NCBI GenBank assembly: GCA_014859735.1 | Contig: JACUTR010000008.1 | Coordinates: 1 to 32,824 of the forward strand | Length of the DNA: 32,824 bases | Direction: 5' to 3' | Source: Candidatus Methanophagales archaeon | GTDB lineage: Archaea; Halobacteriota; Syntropharchaeia; Alkanophagales; Methanospirareceae | Part shown: positions 143-9,238 of the stretch, one piece after another | Layout: the number at the start of each line of letters is the position of its first letter | Numbering within the stretch: the first letter of the stretch is position 1 | Translations under genes and position numbers: made by a program | The notes under the pieces: generated by a model | Told to the model about the DNA's origin: nothing | The model's database searches: none | Seen by the model: the letters and a program-made list of their open reading frames with translations, nothing else

Positions 143-1543
143 TCATTTCCTCTTTCTTAAATATGCAACTGCTAACAATACAGCGATCGTGAATACTGCC
201 TCAAATCCAGGAACCAGTGCCGATGGTGCAGAGCGTGTGACATTCATTGTTTTACATTTTACACCAACTGCACCGTCTGAGGTAATTACCGTCAATTTTA
301 CCGTATAATTCCCCTCTGAGGCGTATGCATGACGAACTACTTCACCATAGCCTTTGCTTCCATCACCAAAATCCCATTCATACGACGATACATTTCCTAA
401 CCAGCCATCTTCTAAAGAAGCATTGAATATTATCATCTGATTTACGTGATAACTCTCTGCAGATGGCTCCAAGTTTAAAGAGATGCAGTACGGATTAATT
501 TCCTTTTTCTTTTCGGGAATTTCAGCCTCTCTGTATATCTTATCAATTCGTTCTAAGATCTCTTTTGCTGCTGGTGTAGCAGTTTCTGGTTCTGGAAATG
601 TAGGAGGTCTCACTTTTAATCTTAGTGTTTTATTCAATGGTATGCATGAAATTTTTGTGCCACCACCAATAGGATCAAATACACAGTCCATATGGTCCCT
701 GATAAGTTGGTCACTCACATTAACTGTGTAATCACTATATTCACTAAGATTTGAGAAAAGCTCTAAAAGGGCATTGACTTCCTCTTTTGGGATATATCCT
801 TCTTTAATTACTATTTCTTTATGGTCAGGATAGTAATGGTCACTATAACACGTAACCTTTCCATCATCAAATATAACCATCCATCTCTCTCCTTCAAATA
901 CAGTCGAATTCGCCGAAATAACAGGTTTGGATTTTTGAAACTTTTTATCCATTAATCTGTTGATTTCATCAATCCAAGTTTTATCTAACTCATCACTTTC
1001 CTCTTGCTGTATTGCCCAGCAACTCCAACCTTCGAATGAGTCAATTAAAACATGCGCTTCTAAACCTTCATCTAAATTGTCTTCCAAGATAAAGAGGGGA
1101 CTTTTAACATTTTCCAAAATTCTGTAGCCGTTTTCATCATATTTAACGTTCGACTGATAAGGTTCAATCCATTGACTGATTGTAATTTGCTCCGGGTGTC
1201 TGAACCTCATTTCTATTACTCTGTCATTTTCCTTTATCTCGTGAATATCTTCTTCGCTAAATGCACATTTTGCCTGAAGGTTTAACCTGTGAAGAGTTTG
1301 AAAAAGGAAGTTGCTTAAATCCGAGTTCTCACCGGCTACAAACTGCTCTGTGTCGTTCTCCCATAGGAAAACGCTTTCTGTCATCAGTTGCCAGGCCGGA
1401 GGGAGAGGCGTAATTTCGATGTCCGCAGCGGCACAGACAGAAAAATCATTTATTCCACAATTCAAAACAACTAAACTAACTCCTGCAATGGCTACTATGG
1501 CAATTGCCAAAATCCCAAAAAGTAATTTTTTATTCTTCATCAT
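143..1543 (-). CDS. Secreted PKD-domain protein with PGF-CTERM-like C-terminal sorting signal
   Basis: N-terminal signal MMKNKKLLFGILAIAIVAIAGVSL; PKD motif YEWDFGDGSKGYGEVVRHAYASEGNYTVKLTV; C-terminal VPGFEAVFTIAVLLAVAYLRKRK. Confidence 0.88.
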   Translation of the reverse strand: MMKNKKLLFGILAIAIVAIAGVSLVVLNCGINDFSVCAAADIEITPLPPAWQLMTESVFLWENDTEQFVAGENSDLSNFLFQTLHRLNLQAKCAFSEEDIHEIKENDRVIEMRFRHPEQITISQWIEPYQSNVKYDENGYRILENVKSPLFILEDNLDEGLEAHVLIDSFEGWSCWAIQQEESDELDKTWIDEINRLMDKKFQKSKPVISANSTVFEGERWMVIFDDGKVTCYSDHYYPDHKEIVIKEGYIPKEEVNALLELFSNLSEYSDYTVNVSDQLIRDHMDCVFDPIGGGTKISCIPLNKTLRLKVRPPTFPEPETATPAAKEILERIDKIYREAEIPEKKKEINPYCISLNLEPSAESYHVNQMIIFNASLEDGWLGNVSSYEWDFGDGSKGYGEVVRHAYASEGNYTVKLTVITSDGAVGVKCKTMNVTRSAPSALVPGFEAVFTIAVLLAVAYLRKRK

Positions 1544-1548
1544 AATCT

Positions 1549-1779
1549 TTATCTCTTTCTCCGGTATTTATCAATTACAAATCCAACCGTGGCACCGATT
1601 AGTGCTCCGAAAATTGCTGATAAGAATAACCCGTAATAAACCCCGAAAGAGTATAAAGATGGAGTTGGAGGAATAAAACTCACAATTGCCCTTCCACCAT
1701 ACCACCATAGAAGAGGAATATACGAACTTATAAGCCCAAAAACTGCTCCAATTATCGCACCTGCTTTCCATTTTTTCAT
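1549..1779 (-). CDS. Small membrane protein, MKKWKxGAIIGA family
   Basis: MKKWKAGAIIGAVFGL...FGALIGATVGFVIDKYRRKR; paralogous to 4742-5197 and 5202-5522; two hydrophobic segments. Confidence 0.75.
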   Translation of the reverse strand: MKKWKAGAIIGAVFGLISSYIPLLWWYGGRAIVSFIPPTPSLYSFGVYYGLFLSAIFGALIGATVGFVIDKYRRKR

Positions 1780-1825
1780 TATAATTTATTATACCTCCTT
1801 TCTTTTAAAATGGCCAATTTCCACC

Positions 1826-3448
1826 CTATGGTGGTGGTATTTCACTCACACATCCGACAAAAAGCTCAATACGCTCAATATCCTCTCTATACTTCAAGTG
1901 CAGCTCGAAATCCCCTGTTTGTCCACTCTTAACATAAGGAGCAATAATGCCACATACAGGACCTGGGTCAATACTGTGCCCAATCTGCTCCCCTTCCGAA
2001 TTAAAAGCATGTGCAGCCATGCAGATGTAATAATCTCTATCGTACTCATTTTTGATAGTTCCGGTGATTACAATACCAAGATCCCCTACGTTAGCTGCAT
2101 TAGGAGGGCAAATATCATTTAGTTCTATAAAACAATATTTTAAACGAGAATCGTTCAAAAGTATTTGGGATTTGTTCCCCCTGTAAGTGAAGTATTCACC
2201 GGGTTGTGGTGTTAAATGTGGGATGTCCGTCATCGTAGGCACTTCTTTGGCAGGTTCTAGAATTTCTTCAATCCCATAATGTCCGCAAAATACTCGAATA
2301 TCTCCTTCTGACCATTTTCTTAGATATATCCTTACTTTTTTATCTTCATAGGGCGTAAAATTATATGGAGCTCTTACTGAAACATTAATTTGAAGCATAT
2401 CTGCCACCTTTTCTTTTACCAGAAGCGGCTTTCCCTTGAAATATCCATCAATTGTTAGATAAACATAACTATAAATGCCCTTTTCCATATCGGCTTTTTC
2501 ATCAACTTTTTCAACAGTTCCATCGATTATATAATCTGATGTTTCAATCAGGTAAGATTTATTGAAACATTCTCTTGCTATGGGTCCAGCCTCAATACCT
2601 ACGATTATTTTATCTTTTGCGGCAATTTCTTTTGATTTCATCTCAGCGAGTATTCTATTTATCCCTTCAATCCAGTTTTTATCTAATTCATTACTGTCTT
2701 TTTGTTGTATTGCCCAGCAACCCCACATTCTACCGCAGGCAAATTCACACTCATCTTTTGTTTTGAACGGCACGATTTCAGAATCATAATAGCAACCAAA
2801 TACAGCACTGCAACCATATTCATCGCTAAACACATAACCAACACTTCCTTCGCAAGGTCCTAATTTTTCTATGTCTTCTTGAGTTATTTCCCAAGAGCAT
2901 TTTTCATCTCTTTCTTTCCTTTCACTTCCAACTAAAATATGACCCTCTAATCCTCTATCTTGATTGTCCTCCAAAATAAACAAAGCAGTTTTAACATTCT
3001 CCAAGATTCTGTATCCTTTCTCATCAACTGGGATATGATATCTTTCTTCTGGTTCAACCCATTGTGAGGTTGTAATATCTATCGGTTTTTTGAAAATTAA
3101 CTCTGCAGCCCTGTCATTTTGTTTTATTTCTTGAATGTCTTCTTCACTAAGAACACATTTTGCTTGCAAATTCAGTTCATGAAGTTTGCGAGTAAGCAAA
3201 CTTGCTATTCCAATTCCTTCTTCACTTTTAGGATCAATGAGTTCTTGTCTGAAATATGGGAGATCTCTACCACTTTCATAGAAGACAATTTCTTCAACCA
3301 TTTCTTTAGTTGGCTCTACTTCATTTGGGGTCGATTTAAAAGCATCGTCCGATAGAAAAACAATGTAGCCCACTGTTCCTATGAGGGCAACCACTAAAGC
3401 TAAACTCACTACTACTAAACCAAGTCCATGCATTTCTTTCCTTTTCAT
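1826..3448 (-). CDS. Secreted/membrane-anchored multidomain protein with a cysteine-rich Kunitz-like insertion
   Basis: Signal-anchor MKRKEMHGLGLVVVSLALVVALIGTVGYIVF; domain shared with the 143-1543 protein (LNLQAKC.LSEEDI.EIK.NDR ... GYRILENVK..LFILEDN); start overlaps the upstream gene's stop (ATGA). Confidence 0.85.
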   Translation of the reverse strand: MKRKEMHGLGLVVVSLALVVALIGTVGYIVFLSDDAFKSTPNEVEPTKEMVEEIVFYESGRDLPYFRQELIDPKSEEGIGIASLLTRKLHELNLQAKCVLSEEDIQEIKQNDRAAELIFKKPIDITTSQWVEPEERYHIPVDEKGYRILENVKTALFILEDNQDRGLEGHILVGSERKERDEKCSWEITQEDIEKLGPCEGSVGYVFSDEYGCSAVFGCYYDSEIVPFKTKDECEFACGRMWGCWAIQQKDSNELDKNWIEGINRILAEMKSKEIAAKDKIIVGIEAGPIARECFNKSYLIETSDYIIDGTVEKVDEKADMEKGIYSYVYLTIDGYFKGKPLLVKEKVADMLQINVSVRAPYNFTPYEDKKVRIYLRKWSEGDIRVFCGHYGIEEILEPAKEVPTMTDIPHLTPQPGEYFTYRGNKSQILLNDSRLKYCFIELNDICPPNAANVGDLGIVITGTIKNEYDRDYYICMAAHAFNSEGEQIGHSIDPGPVCGIIAPYVKSGQTGDFELHLKYREDIERIELFVGCVSEIPPP

Positions 3449-4725
3449 TTCTTTAAAACAAAACCCACAATTCCTACTATCAACGCAATTATGATAATAA
3501 CACCAACAATAAGAGCCTTTTCATGGTAAGCAACAGTCACGCCGAAAGGTAATTGATTATAAGGAACAGGTACACCGCTAGGAACTTCATCAGGTAATAA
3601 CCCTATTGGAAAACCACCACAATCAATACCCGCTCTTACCATATACATCCCCGTTTCTTCTGACATCTCTTCTGTAATTCCCTGCACCCACTCCCCCTTA
3701 AAGTATCTAATCTTTGAGTTCCAGCCAGCAGTTCCTTTATCTGCCACTTTTGCTATTCCATGTAAATCATTATCAGTTAAACCGCAGATTACCTTATTAT
3801 TTCGTAACCACTCTAATTCAGTTCGTAATGCTAATCCCCAATCAAAAGTATCTAAGTCAATATCTATGGCTGGTTCTAAATCAACATCTTCTCTGGTTTC
3901 AGTTTTTATTTTTGCCTGATTTAAAAAATCGGGACTAAGCCCGTAAGCTTCAAGTACATTCTTAAATTCTTCTCCTAATTCAGGGGTTAAAGTGCTTTGA
4001 TTTCTAACACGAATAGAAAAACCGGCAAAACTTTTTCCCTTTTCACCTTCCTCGTCACCATCTCCCTCTTCTTCAATATCACTAATACTCCAAACAGCAA
4101 TATCAATGTTTTCCTTTATAACTTGGCTTTTAAGATAACCCGCTTGAAATTTACCTTCAACCTGGTAACCCAAAGATTCAAGATAATCTTGATTAACTTC
4201 CTGAGTAATTGGTGGTAGACCGTCTAAATCAATTTTTATCTCAGGATAAGAACTTTTAACAAACTTTGTTGGCACCTGTATTTTAACATTCAAATATTTT
4301 TGACCTTCCCATTCTTCTTCCATTAAAGCAACTGCAATATCTTTATTGTAATGAGACCGGTAAATTATGGCGTTAGTTTCTATATAATCTTCAAAGGAAG
4401 GTTCTGTTCTTTTTGGCTTTTCTTCACCTTCTTCTTCTATTGTTATTACTTCTATAGGTTTTGGGATAACTTCTTCTCTATGCACCTCTTCAACAACATC
4501 ATCGGGACTTCCTTCTTTCTCCTTCTCTATAACTGTAACATCTTTTGATTGTTTTATCCCGCTTAAGTCATAAGTTATAGAAGGTTTGTTTAAAGCTACT
4601 CCGGTGGCAAAACTGTCCGTCGGATTAAAACAAGCCATGCCTATATTCGAAAAAATTAGCAGGCTAAAGATTAGCAAAAAACTCAGTCCAAATATTTTAC
4701 TTTTGTTCTTTATTATTTCATTCAT
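3445..4725 (-). CDS. Secreted protein with C-terminal transmembrane anchor, unknown function
   Basis: N-terminal hydrophobic signal IFGLSFLLIFSLLIFSNIGMAC, C-terminal TM ALIVGVIIIIALIVGIVGFVLKK; coupled to the downstream gene by ATGA overlap. Confidence 0.82.
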   Translation of the reverse strand: MNEIIKNKSKIFGLSFLLIFSLLIFSNIGMACFNPTDSFATGVALNKPSITYDLSGIKQSKDVTVIEKEKEGSPDDVVEEVHREEVIPKPIEVITIEEEGEEKPKRTEPSFEDYIETNAIIYRSHYNKDIAVALMEEEWEGQKYLNVKIQVPTKFVKSSYPEIKIDLDGLPPITQEVNQDYLESLGYQVEGKFQAGYLKSQVIKENIDIAVWSISDIEEEGDGDEEGEKGKSFAGFSIRVRNQSTLTPELGEEFKNVLEAYGLSPDFLNQAKIKTETREDVDLEPAIDIDLDTFDWGLALRTELEWLRNNKVICGLTDNDLHGIAKVADKGTAGWNSKIRYFKGEWVQGITEEMSEETGMYMVRAGIDCGGFPIGLLPDEVPSGVPVPYNQLPFGVTVAYHEKALIVGVIIIIALIVGIVGFVLKK

Positions 4726-4741
4726 GTTTTCTTACCCCTCT

Positions 4742-5197
4742 TTATAAGTGACGAAGATACCAAAATACAAAAATCAGAAAAAACCCCGTGATTCCTGCCA
4801 AAGCACCTATTTTCAAGTCTTTTTTGATTTTCATTATAGTTATCTCTTGTCCTTTGTATTTGCCACTCAAATATCCAATTCCCGCACCCATCAGTGCCCC
4901 AATCCCTGACCACGTTACCACGATAAGCATCACTAACAGTTTCATACCTGCATTAGAAGAAGAAAAAAGTTTGTGGACTGTAATGGACGACAGACCAAAA
5001 ATACCGAAAAGCGTCTCGATGATAAACCAAAAAACCGAAGGCGCTGATGCCGCTTCACAGAATATCGGTGCTAATACGGTATCAAAACTGCTCTGCTTAC
5101 CAGCAACAGTGAAAAGTATGTAGAATAGAGGGCATGAGATAGTATAAAACGCCCCTATAATTGCTCCAACTATCGCACCAATTTTCCATTTCTTCAT
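4742..5197 (-). CDS. Membrane protein, MKKWKxGAIIGA family with extra C-terminal TM
   Basis: Likely start at internal Met (MKKWKIGAIVGAIIGAF...ALMGAGIGYLSGKYKG); track ORF begins at 5242. Confidence 0.72.
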   Translation of the reverse strand: MKKWKIGAIVGAIIGAFYTISCPLFYILFTVAGKQSSFDTVLAPIFCEAASAPSVFWFIIETLFGIFGLSSITVHKLFSSSNAGMKLLVMLIVVTWSGIGALMGAGIGYLSGKYKGQEITIMKIKKDLKIGALAGITGFFLIFVFWYLRHL

Positions 5198-5201
5198 CGT
5201 A

Positions 5202-5522
5202 TCATCTCCTGTATTTATCAATAAAATATCCAACTCCAGCACCGATTAAGGCCCCATGAACTGGATATAGGAGCAAAACAAACGAATCGGGAAAGGAGAT
5301 AGTTGGAAATATGGAATTCAATACGGAGAGCATTGTTCCAACACTCCAGAAAAGTGAGAAGAAAGCAATCATGCCAATCGGGGCTAGAGCATAGATGTAA
5401 TCGGGAGGAGGCGTTTCGCCCGGCATGAGCATCCCCATTCGCCACATCACCGTGGGAATGAATATAGCCCCTAACAAACCCCAAATTGCGCCGATTATCG
5501 CACCTAATTTCCATTTTTTCAT
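5202..5522 (-). CDS. Small membrane protein, MKKWKxGAIIGA family
   Basis: MKKWKLGAIIGAIWGLLGAIF...HGALIGAGVGYFIDKYRR; track ORF starts at 5537. Confidence 0.75.
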   Translation of the reverse strand: MKKWKLGAIIGAIWGLLGAIFIPTVMWRMGMLMPGETPPPDYIYALAPIGMIAFFSLFWSVGTMLSVLNSIFPTISFPDSFVLLLYPVHGALIGAGVGYFIDKYRR

Positions 5523-5529
5523 TGTATTT

Positions 5530-6624
5530 TCATTCATAATAATCCAAATATACCCTTAATGTCCTATTTTCCAACTCCAGATACTCTCCCCATTTCTTAG
5601 CAACATTTTCAGAAATCGCAGCGGGTGACCACCTAATATAAACCCATTTAATTTCCCTCAATTCAACATTATGTTTGTTAAGAATCTCTTTTGCCTCTTC
5701 TAACGATGCTTCCCCCTCAAGGAAGATTATGTAAATACCCTCTTTCTCTTTTACATCGCCCTCGGTGTAATAGAGAGTTCTGTTCAATTCTTGGAATCCA
5801 TCATTGTAGAGGAATTTCACATCGTCTACTCTGCTTTTTGGGATTTCAACATAATATTTTTGTGACATCCAATCAATGTATTTCCAACTGTAATTAATGG
5901 AATCAAAATCAATTTTCCTGAGAGTGGAATTTATCTCACCTTGTTCCGCATCTTGCGCAAAAGCAACTATTAGCCCACCGACAGACCTCGTCTCTTCTTC
6001 CGAAAGTAATTTTTCATAAGCATAATACCCTGAAACAAATGCCCTGCTGATAATCTTGCCATCTTTCTCTATCTTGAGCATCCACGCCTCTCCACTACAA
6101 CACCCTGTATCATCATAAACATAAATTGGCTCAGATACTACCGCATCTCTATATTTATCAGTTATATTTTTTGCTATTTCTTTTGCTTCTTCAATAGTGC
6201 TTATAGTTACCGTAGAAGGGCAGTTATCTACATTATGCGGGTCATAGTAGGGGGAATATAAACAGCCCATACAGCCATATCTCGGGATTTTTTCATTCAT
6301 TTTCACATCAATGAAGCCTATAACTTTTTCGTTTAGAACTACCGGGACTTTCCAGTAAAAGGGCTTTTCATCAACGGTTCTCACAAGAGAAGGCGTGCCA
6401 ACCATAGCTTTTGGATCCCTCCATAATTCTTCACATTCAACGGGTTCTGTTTGTGCTTTAACTTCATTGAATTTTGATTCCGCAATTTCTTTCGCTTGCT
6501 CTTGTGATAATTTTAAATCCTCGTCCGATTGAAAAACAATGTAGCCCACTGTTCCTATGAGAGCAACCACTAAAGCTAAACTCACTACTACTAAACCAAG
6601 TCCATGCATTTCTTTCCTTTTCAT
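5530..6624 (-). CDS. Membrane-anchored secreted protein with PepSY-like repeats
   Basis: Signal-anchor nearly identical to 1826-3448; LSQEQAKEIAESKFNEV and TISTIEEAKEIAKNI segments resemble PepSY-type repeats; ATGA overlap with 6621-7517. Confidence 0.78.
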   Translation of the reverse strand: MKRKEMHGLGLVVVSLALVVALIGTVGYIVFQSDEDLKLSQEQAKEIAESKFNEVKAQTEPVECEELWRDPKAMVGTPSLVRTVDEKPFYWKVPVVLNEKVIGFIDVKMNEKIPRYGCMGCLYSPYYDPHNVDNCPSTVTISTIEEAKEIAKNITDKYRDAVVSEPIYVYDDTGCCSGEAWMLKIEKDGKIISRAFVSGYYAYEKLLSEEETRSVGGLIVAFAQDAEQGEINSTLRKIDFDSINYSWKYIDWMSQKYYVEIPKSRVDDVKFLYNDGFQELNRTLYYTEGDVKEKEGIYIIFLEGEASLEEAKEILNKHNVELREIKWVYIRWSPAAISENVAKKWGEYLELENRTLRVYLDYYE

Positions 6625-7517
6625 TTACTCTTCCCCTTCCGCAATCTTGGCATCACCTTTGCTTTGACGAACCACGCGATCCCCACCAGAATTAATAGTG
6701 GCAAGGCGTATCCAACGAGAATTATGAGTCCCCGTATCACTGATACGAAGGCTTCAAAGGCATCGCGAAAAGCATCCCGGATGCCCCAGCTATGCGTTAT
6801 CGGCTCCGGTTCGTACAATGAAACGGAGATCGTTGCAAGCTCCACACGGTTCTCAAGATAGTTTATCCTACCGATAAGTCGTTCGATATCATTCCGCACA
6901 CGCTCCAACTCACGTTCAACGTCTAGAACGTCCTCGACATCCTCAGCTATATCCAGAATCTCCAGTAACCTCTTCTCCTGCCGCTCGGAATTGTTAAGCC
7001 TCGCCGTCAAATCAATATACTCTTCCGTAACGTCTTCTCCCGAGATGTGTTTTGATTTAACAGTACCAATCTGCTCTATTTCTGCGATAACCGGCAGAAA
7101 CTCATGCGTTGGCACCCTGAGTGCAATATCACCCCTCTTACGACCTGTGTCGGTAACATACGAGTAAGAATCAGAAACAAAACCACCCGAACGTTCTACT
7201 ATAAGGATGAGTGCGTCAGAACTTGCTTGGAAGTCCTCTACTTCTATACTTAATGAAGCCCGTTGGATTATTTTCCGCTCTGTATTCGTATTAGTATATT
7301 GAGATTCCGGTGTTTCTCTTCCTACCGGCGTAGGTATCGGTGTAGGCATTACTGCCGGCGTAGGTATTGCTGCTGGAAATCCTTTACCTCCCCATACATC
7401 CTCATCAGAATATTCAATCTGCCCCTTTAACTCTGATAATGAAGAGGCGAAAAAACCTGCTGACGCTGCTAATACGCAGAGCACAATGACAGCCGCTATT
7501 TTTGTATATTTCTCCAT
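6621..7517 (-). CDS. DUF4349-like membrane protein
   Basis: RKIIQRASLSIEVEDFQASSDALILIVERSGGFVSDSYSYVTDTGRKRGDIALRVP...; coiled-coil then VELATISVSLYEPEP and a C-terminal TM, typical of DUF4349. Confidence 0.85.
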   Translation of the reverse strand: MEKYTKIAAVIVLCVLAASAGFFASSLSELKGQIEYSDEDVWGGKGFPAAIPTPAVMPTPIPTPVGRETPESQYTNTNTERKIIQRASLSIEVEDFQASSDALILIVERSGGFVSDSYSYVTDTGRKRGDIALRVPTHEFLPVIAEIEQIGTVKSKHISGEDVTEEYIDLTARLNNSERQEKRLLEILDIAEDVEDVLDVERELERVRNDIERLIGRINYLENRVELATISVSLYEPEPITHSWGIRDAFRDAFEAFVSVIRGLIILVGYALPLLILVGIAWFVKAKVMPRLRKGKSK

Positions 7518-7549
7518 CTTTATTACCTACAAATCCTGTTTCTTTTTTT

Positions 7550-7562
7550 AACATTTATAAGA
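7550..7562 (-). promoter_or_regulatory. Candidate TATA box/promoter for the DUF4349-led minus-strand block
   Basis: Reverse strand reads CTTATAAATG about 35-45 nt upstream of the 7517 start. Confidence 0.45.
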
Positions 7563-7627
7563 TTTTCGATGACTACGAACCAAGTTGAAGTAATAAAAGA
7601 CGGAAAAGGTAAATTTTGGATACCTTT

Positions 7628-9238
7628 TCATTTCCTCCTTCTTAAGAGATATGCAACTGCTAACAATCCAGCGATTGGGAATATAGCCTCAAATCCTGGA
7701 ACTGCTGGAGTTGGTGTGGGACTATATATGGGGCATGTTATTATACGCATTGTTCTGTATTTTTCAGCTGCACCTATTTCAACCCCTCCTCTTTTACTAC
7801 TCACCCTCAATTTTACCTCATAATCACCTGGTGAAGAGTATGAATGATGGACTTTTTCACCATAGCCCTTACTTCCGTCGCCAAAATCCCATTCTACTGT
7901 ATAATTTTCAGGTAAAGAGTACGAGAAATGAGCTGTTTCACATAGGCTTTTACTCCTATTAATTAACCCTGAAGGTAGCCACTCTAGGGAAGCATTGAAT
8001 GTTATTATCTGATTCACACAATAGCTCTCCACAAAAGGCTCAATGTTTAAAGAGAAGCTGTAAGGGTTAACAATCTCTTCTCTTATCTCAGTAATCTCTG
8101 CATCTCTAAATATCCTATCAATTCTTTTCACAATTTCCTTTACCGTTGGCGTAGCCGTTTCTTGTTCGGGAAATAAAAATGATATTTTTAGTGTTTTATT
8201 TAGGGGTATGCACGAAATCTTTTGTCTATGGTAGTCACGGATAAGTAGCTCACTTAAGTTAACTGTATACTCGCTATATTCACTAAGATTTGAGAAAAGT
8301 TCTAAAAGAGCATCAACTTCTTCTCTTGAAATGTATCCTTCTTTAATTACTATTTCTTTATAGTCAGGATAGTAATGGTCACTGTAACCTATAACCTTCC
8401 CATCATCAAGTATCCTCATCCATCTCTCCCCTTCAAACACGGTTGAATTCACCAAAATAATGGGTTTTTGAATGGTAGAATTAATTTCGGGCGCAAACGG
8501 AGGTGGTGGTGGAATTGACTTTAGGGCGGATAATATCTTAACAACCTCTTTACTCTCTAAATTCACGTATATATTTATAAATCGAAGGAGTTCTGGATCA
8601 GAGTTTACGGTTATACTAACCGCCGGATATGCGAGGAAAGGACACTTTCCTTCATAGCATGTTTTCCAAGGGGGGCCACTCAGAACCCTCTGAACCCCCA
8701 CATCCTTTATCTCATAGTGTTTACCACCTATCATATCCAACACCTCGGGATTGGTTAGAGCTATTCTCAATACCTCATCCTTTTGTTCATCCGTCAAAGA
8801 AGCTAATTTTAGATCGAAATCAAAACCATATACTTTCTCCTGAATCACATCCACAGATACTTCAAGGGTAATCCCAAGAACCCATGGTAGTTCCTGCTCC
8901 TTAGTGAGGATATAAACCAAGCAAGGACGAATGCCTTCGTATCCGGTAGACTGAGGAGGACGTGGAGGAAGAGGAACAGGAACTACTTCGTAGACCTCGT
9001 ACCCATTATCCAGCCATTCCTGCACCTCAAGGTCGCTTATAGCCAATTCAATTGCTTTTAACTTTTCCTCTTCTGTTAGCGGCTGCACATCCGAATAAGG
9101 AGGGATGGGTATCGGTGGTTGTGGCTCAATTTGAGCCGACTCAGAAGTTTCATTGGGTGAAAAAACGGTGTAGCCTATCGTCCCTAAGATGGCTACTCCT
9201 AAAATTAAACCTGTTACTGTTAACCAAACTTTTTTCAT
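7628..9238 (-). CDS. Secreted PKD-domain protein with PGF-CTERM and two N-terminal PepSY-like repeats
   Basis: LTEEEKLKAIELAISDLEVQEWLDNGYEVYEV and LTDEQKDEVLRIALTNPEVLDMIGGKHYEIKDV internal repeats; PKD VEWDFGDGSKGYGEKVHHSYSSPGDYEVKLRV; C-terminus VPGFEAIFPIAGLLAVAYLLRRRK. Confidence 0.88.
   Translation of the reverse strand: MKKVWLTVTGLILGVAILGTIGYTVFSPNETSESAQIEPQPPIPIPPYSDVQPLTEEEKLKAIELAISDLEVQEWLDNGYEVYEVVPVPLPPRPPQSTGYEGIRPCLVYILTKEQELPWVLGITLEVSVDVIQEKVYGFDFDLKLASLTDEQKDEVLRIALTNPEVLDMIGGKHYEIKDVGVQRVLSGPPWKTCYEGKCPFLAYPAVSITVNSDPELLRFINIYVNLESKEVVKILSALKSIPPPPPFAPEINSTIQKPIILVNSTVFEGERWMRILDDGKVIGYSDHYYPDYKEIVIKEGYISREEVDALLELFSNLSEYSEYTVNLSELLIRDYHRQKISCIPLNKTLKISFLFPEQETATPTVKEIVKRIDRIFRDAEITEIREEIVNPYSFSLNIEPFVESYCVNQIITFNASLEWLPSGLINRSKSLCETAHFSYSLPENYTVEWDFGDGSKGYGEKVHHSYSSPGDYEVKLRVSSKRGGVEIGAAEKYRTMRIITCPIYSPTPTPAVPGFEAIFPIAGLLAVAYLLRRRK

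Follow-up and report, generated by a model that had tools for sequence, protein, structure and literature searches.

The cluster gene and its insert

The window analysed here is the whole of a 32,824-nucleotide contig (C125) from a Candidatus Methanophagales genome of 1.68 Mb that is 93.8% complete. From 143 to 9238, next to housekeeping genes, its minus strand carries a run of genes whose products are secreted or anchored (PKD, PGF-CTERM, DUF4349 and heavy-Cys). One open reading frame of this run (1826–3448, minus strand) encodes a protein of 540 residues that is probably extracytoplasmic and membrane-anchored. Its N-terminus is a hydrophobic anchor, recognised by inspection of the sequence; after this come a central domain that contains an insert and separate C-terminal modules. 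The protein, C-terminal modules included, has no Pfam match, and its central and C-terminal parts are found separately in homologs. Two genes of the run have a 117-nt start, encoding a signal or anchor, that is 96% identical (3334–3450 and 6510–6626), but their bodies are different, which suggests that genes of the cluster have reused the anchor segment.

The insert comprises about residues 176–241 (2726–2923, minus strand), as the paralog and the insert-less homologs run straight through the site. In alignment with homologs it is immediately preceded by the host strand HILVGS (2924–2941, minus strand) and immediately followed by the conserved strand WGCWAIQQ (2702–2725, minus strand). The paralog, a protein of 466 residues (143–1543, minus strand) for which the domain search finds a PKD domain and a PGF-CTERM anchor, has the same central domain without the insert. 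Its insertion site reads HVLIDSFEGWSCWAIQQ, and that of other insert-less homologs HILVGHEVGYSCWAIQQ or HILVGHRVEGRIGYSCWAI; in the paralog and in the homologs of L037–L040, HVLIDS or HILVGH is joined directly to the CWAI strand, with a short loop at the position of the insert. The AlphaFold model of the host protein likewise places the insert between two strands, in a domain mostly at pLDDT 60–83. The earlier note had described a discrete insertion, and the shared flanks in the alignment of the paralog and insert-less homologs support it.

The same host domain carries extra cysteine-rich stretches elsewhere, N-terminally in L006 and L007 and C-terminally in L040 (CNEDNDCVSVKSGCCGC...; CGWSTYGNCSSDSDCITGGC...). 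On two contigs labelled Diapherotrites (L037) and Micrarchaeota (L038), the host protein lacks the insert and has about 50% identity with its ANME-1 counterpart, through either transfer or misbinning.

A divergent six-cysteine domain

The insert holds a Kunitz-like domain (residues 183–239; 2732–2902, minus strand), supported by profile comparison with the PDB, hhalign, shuffles and homologs. Its six cysteines, at residues 184, 199, 213, 219, 234 and 238, stand in Kunitz order with a GPC motif and a C-x3-C ending, spaced C-14-C-13-C-5-C-14-C-3-C. The cysteines and spacings listed in the earlier note were correct, with the first spacing, 14, omitted from the list; this spacing is longer than that of BPTI (8), as had been remarked. 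Aligned with BPTI, APP-KPI and the archaeal Kunitz domain, G-P-C-E at residues 197–200 (2849–2860, minus strand) is the counterpart of BPTI G12-P13-C14-K15, and the P1 position is Glu.

Searched as a single sequence, the window domain has no Pfam match and finds nothing meaningful in the PDB, and NCBIfam holds no family for it. Matches to picornavirus VP3 in the single-sequence search were set aside as chance matches. In a search with PF00014, which had been suggested as a check, the window domain has no match, but three of the six known members of the group match at E = 0.0031, 0.0037 and 0.022, all below the gathering cut-off of 21 bits, the best relative reaching 18.1 bits. Because the window domain and all its relatives score below the gathering score, we regard it as a divergent variant.

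Among the PDB matches listed for a profile of the six domains, 60 of 60 are Kunitz proteins, the best being the APP Kunitz domain (E = 3e-4). When the variants, as a set, are compared by hhalign with BPTI, APP-KPI and the archaeal Kunitz domain, the probability is 97% (P = 4e-11). Shuffles with the cysteines fixed reached the true score in 1/2000 cases for the window domain and in 0/2000 for each of the other five members. In the alignment, GPC, the G-Y-x-F strand, the Gly before C4, P-F and C-x3-C fall opposite the corresponding Kunitz features. The first strand is one residue shorter and two residues are lost before the Gly; some copies have also lost one residue at the turn. Overall, the hairpin region of the variants is up to four residues shorter and the C1–C2 loop six residues longer. 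Two members, L007 and L011, are intermediates, closer to the canonical hairpin length and with a higher Kunitz score. We are confident that the segment is a divergent, compact domain of the Kunitz/BPTI lineage.

Homologous domains and selection

A search of related genomes, also suggested in the earlier note, yielded five more homologous domains in three other genomes of the archaeal family. Six copies are thus present in four genomes, one of which holds three, and no further one turned up outside the family among 394 genomes sampled from the whole phylum. Searches of viral contigs revealed no relatives of either the window domain or the Kunitz-Kazal protein described below. At least three types of host protein carry the copies: the central-domain protein, a heavy-Cys protein (L011) and one whose N-terminal part is different (L012). 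The second of these, a TIGR04292-like protein (L011:538–2094, plus strand), resembles a TIGR04292-type protein of the window (3445–4725, minus strand) that is without the domain.

All six aligned domains retain Gly-Pro, the Gly before C4, PF and C5-x3-C6, and GPCE, with Glu at P1, is found in five of the six, which are approximately 50–75% identical overall. The dN/dS of the window domain is approximately 0.15 against its closest copy and 0.32 against the next, values that are rough because synonymous changes are close to saturation. Given five homologous domains in three genomes and a dN/dS of approximately 0.15, the six-cysteine segment is not a chance occurrence; purifying selection indicates that the domain is in use.

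Canonical Kunitz and Kazal domains in the same family

A PF00014 search of the phylum found two complete domains above the cut-off (60.9 bits), both in this archaeal family, and when the family genomes were searched with the variant profile, the canonical Kunitz domain was the best non-variant match (E = 5e-6). It has Arg at P1 and begins a lipoprotein-like protein with a lipobox-like N-terminus, in which one Kunitz domain is followed by six Kazal domains (L013:550–1881, minus strand); the frame of the second such gene is interrupted (L014:706–1899, minus strand). Kazal domains are present in 5 of 51 family genomes. Other weak PF00014 matches in the phylum (L015–L022) look like chance, being partial, containing stops or lying inside unrelated proteins. 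The canonical Kunitz and Kazal domains show that archaea of this family possess classical inhibitor modules, and since relatives carry a textbook Kunitz domain, the Kunitz inhibitor fold is at home in ANME-1-family archaea.

Fold and disulfides

The domain most likely folds with the BPTI disulfides C1–C6, C2–C4 and C3–C5. One homolog bears on the second of these: in L008, C2 is replaced by Phe (GPC to GPF) and C4 by Ser (GC to GS), and C1, C3, C5 and C6 are kept. The C2–C4 pair is C14–C38 in BPTI, and the joint loss, although a single case, fits a C2–C4 bridge, which predicts that the two are lost as a pair. The other pairings, and the fold in detail, we infer from the Kunitz relationship. AlphaFold models of the domain, made from alignments of 4 and 10 rows that left out two homologs known only from the genome search, reach pLDDT 45–49; with so few sequences they are too uncertain to count as support for the fold. 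At this low confidence (pLDDT 49) the predicted order is H-E-E-(E)-H, matching the helix-strand-strand-helix order of Kunitz domains, and the top two Foldseek matches of this model are Kunitz proteins, at the non-significant E values of 0.37 and 1.4.

Inhibitor or binding module

As a loop insertion between two β-strands of a membrane-anchored, extracytoplasmic ANME-1 protein, the domain would present its Gly-Pro-Cys-Glu loop outward, as the substrate-like loop of a protease inhibitor. Glu at P1 is ill suited to trypsin-like and chymotrypsin-like targets and would fit a Glu-specific protease, and the putative target would be a serine protease able to take Glu in this position. The source genome encodes one HtrA-like S1 protein and two subtilases as candidate targets, and we found no evidence linking them to the domain. 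That the domain truly inhibits a protease has a little under an even chance, and the joint explanation, a Kunitz-lineage loop insertion with BPTI disulfides and Glu-P1 protease inhibition, has slightly better than an even one.

We put inhibition first, with a role in binding or spacing, free of inhibition, almost as likely. Several animal Kunitz domains are non-inhibitory, and a Kunitz-derived domain acting at the cell surface as a binding or spacer module braced by disulfides is a serious possibility. Glu at P1, the shortened hairpin beside the inhibitory loop, the insertion as a loop within a larger host domain and the occurrence in different host proteins would all suit such a module, as would L008, which has lost both the C14–C38-equivalent bridge and the P1 Glu. 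Such a role is harder to reconcile with the retention of GPCE in five of six homologs despite their overall divergence, with the Gly before C4 in all six, and with the canonical inhibitor domains of family relatives.

Both roles concern a domain of Kunitz descent, and convergence of cysteine spacing in an unrelated six-cysteine domain is an improbable source of the resemblance. Four of the five loop spacings are unlike those of BPTI and the window protein is without a Pfam match, as convergence would allow; but the score exceeds that of cysteine-fixed shuffles, the best PDB matches of the profile (the 60 listed) are exclusively Kunitz, C2 and C4 are lost as a pair in one homolog, and the intermediates L007 and L011, with a more canonical hairpin length, score higher. 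Together with the hhalign comparison, the PF00014 matches of relatives and the canonical domains of the family, this upholds the Kunitz/BPTI relationship proposed in the earlier note.

The archaeal origin claimed there also stands. We consider the sequence archaeal because the relatives of the host protein in named collections are mostly Methanophagales (ANME-1) and Methanosarcinales records, and because, in our reading, the contig encodes archaeal ribosomal proteins, RNA polymerase subunit D and components of the archaellum. Metagenome-assembled genomes are fragmentary, but contaminating eukaryotic sequence or an assembly artefact has a negligible probability, with the insert in one reading frame with the host protein, homologs of the host domain in named Methanophagales genomes, a homologous insert in independent archaeal genomes, and the genes just named on the same contig.

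Significance

Kunitz domains are regarded as chiefly animal protease inhibitors. In the openly accessible papers covered by our search, we found no report of an archaeal Kunitz domain. Finding a divergent, selected subfamily beside canonical Kunitz and Kazal domains in a single archaeal family brings methane-oxidising archaea into inhibitor biology, and suggests that these organisms encounter or control proteolysis outside their cells in sediment consortia. The variants are also short, natural Kunitz scaffolds whose P1 residue is unusual. On a more speculative reading, on balance unlikely, ANME-1 archaea would have evolved a compact Kunitz subfamily of their own with Glu at P1, which would have spread by insertion into several different surface proteins and would inhibit acid-specific proteases of neighbours or of their own consortium; if true, it would constitute a previously undescribed archaeal inhibitor lineage.

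Comparison with known Kunitz domains

The Kunitz/BPTI domain (Pfam PF00014, MEROPS inhibitor family I2) is exemplified by BPTI and the APP Kunitz domain. The variant shares with it the cysteine order, GPC, the aromatic G-Y-x-F strand, the Gly before C4, P/N-F-x-(S/T), the C-x3-C ending and profile homology. It differs in its Glu at P1 and in its score below the Pfam cut-off, and the spacings of the window domain depart from those of BPTI between C1 and C2 (14 versus 8), C2 and C3 (13 versus 15), C3 and C4 (5 versus 7) and C4 and C5 (14 versus 12). The canonical domain of L013 and L014 is the nearer counterpart in one motif, its VPFHT being close to the VPFKT of the variant. Unlike the variant, however, it has near-canonical spacing and Arg at P1, and is N-terminal in a six-Kazal protein with a lipobox-like start. 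KABP1 of Acinetobacter, described as the first bacterial Kunitz-domain peptide (PMC11511053), is, like the variant, a prokaryotic Kunitz domain, but it is bacterial, has Arg at P1 and is a reported inhibitor of coagulation proteases (PMC11511053).
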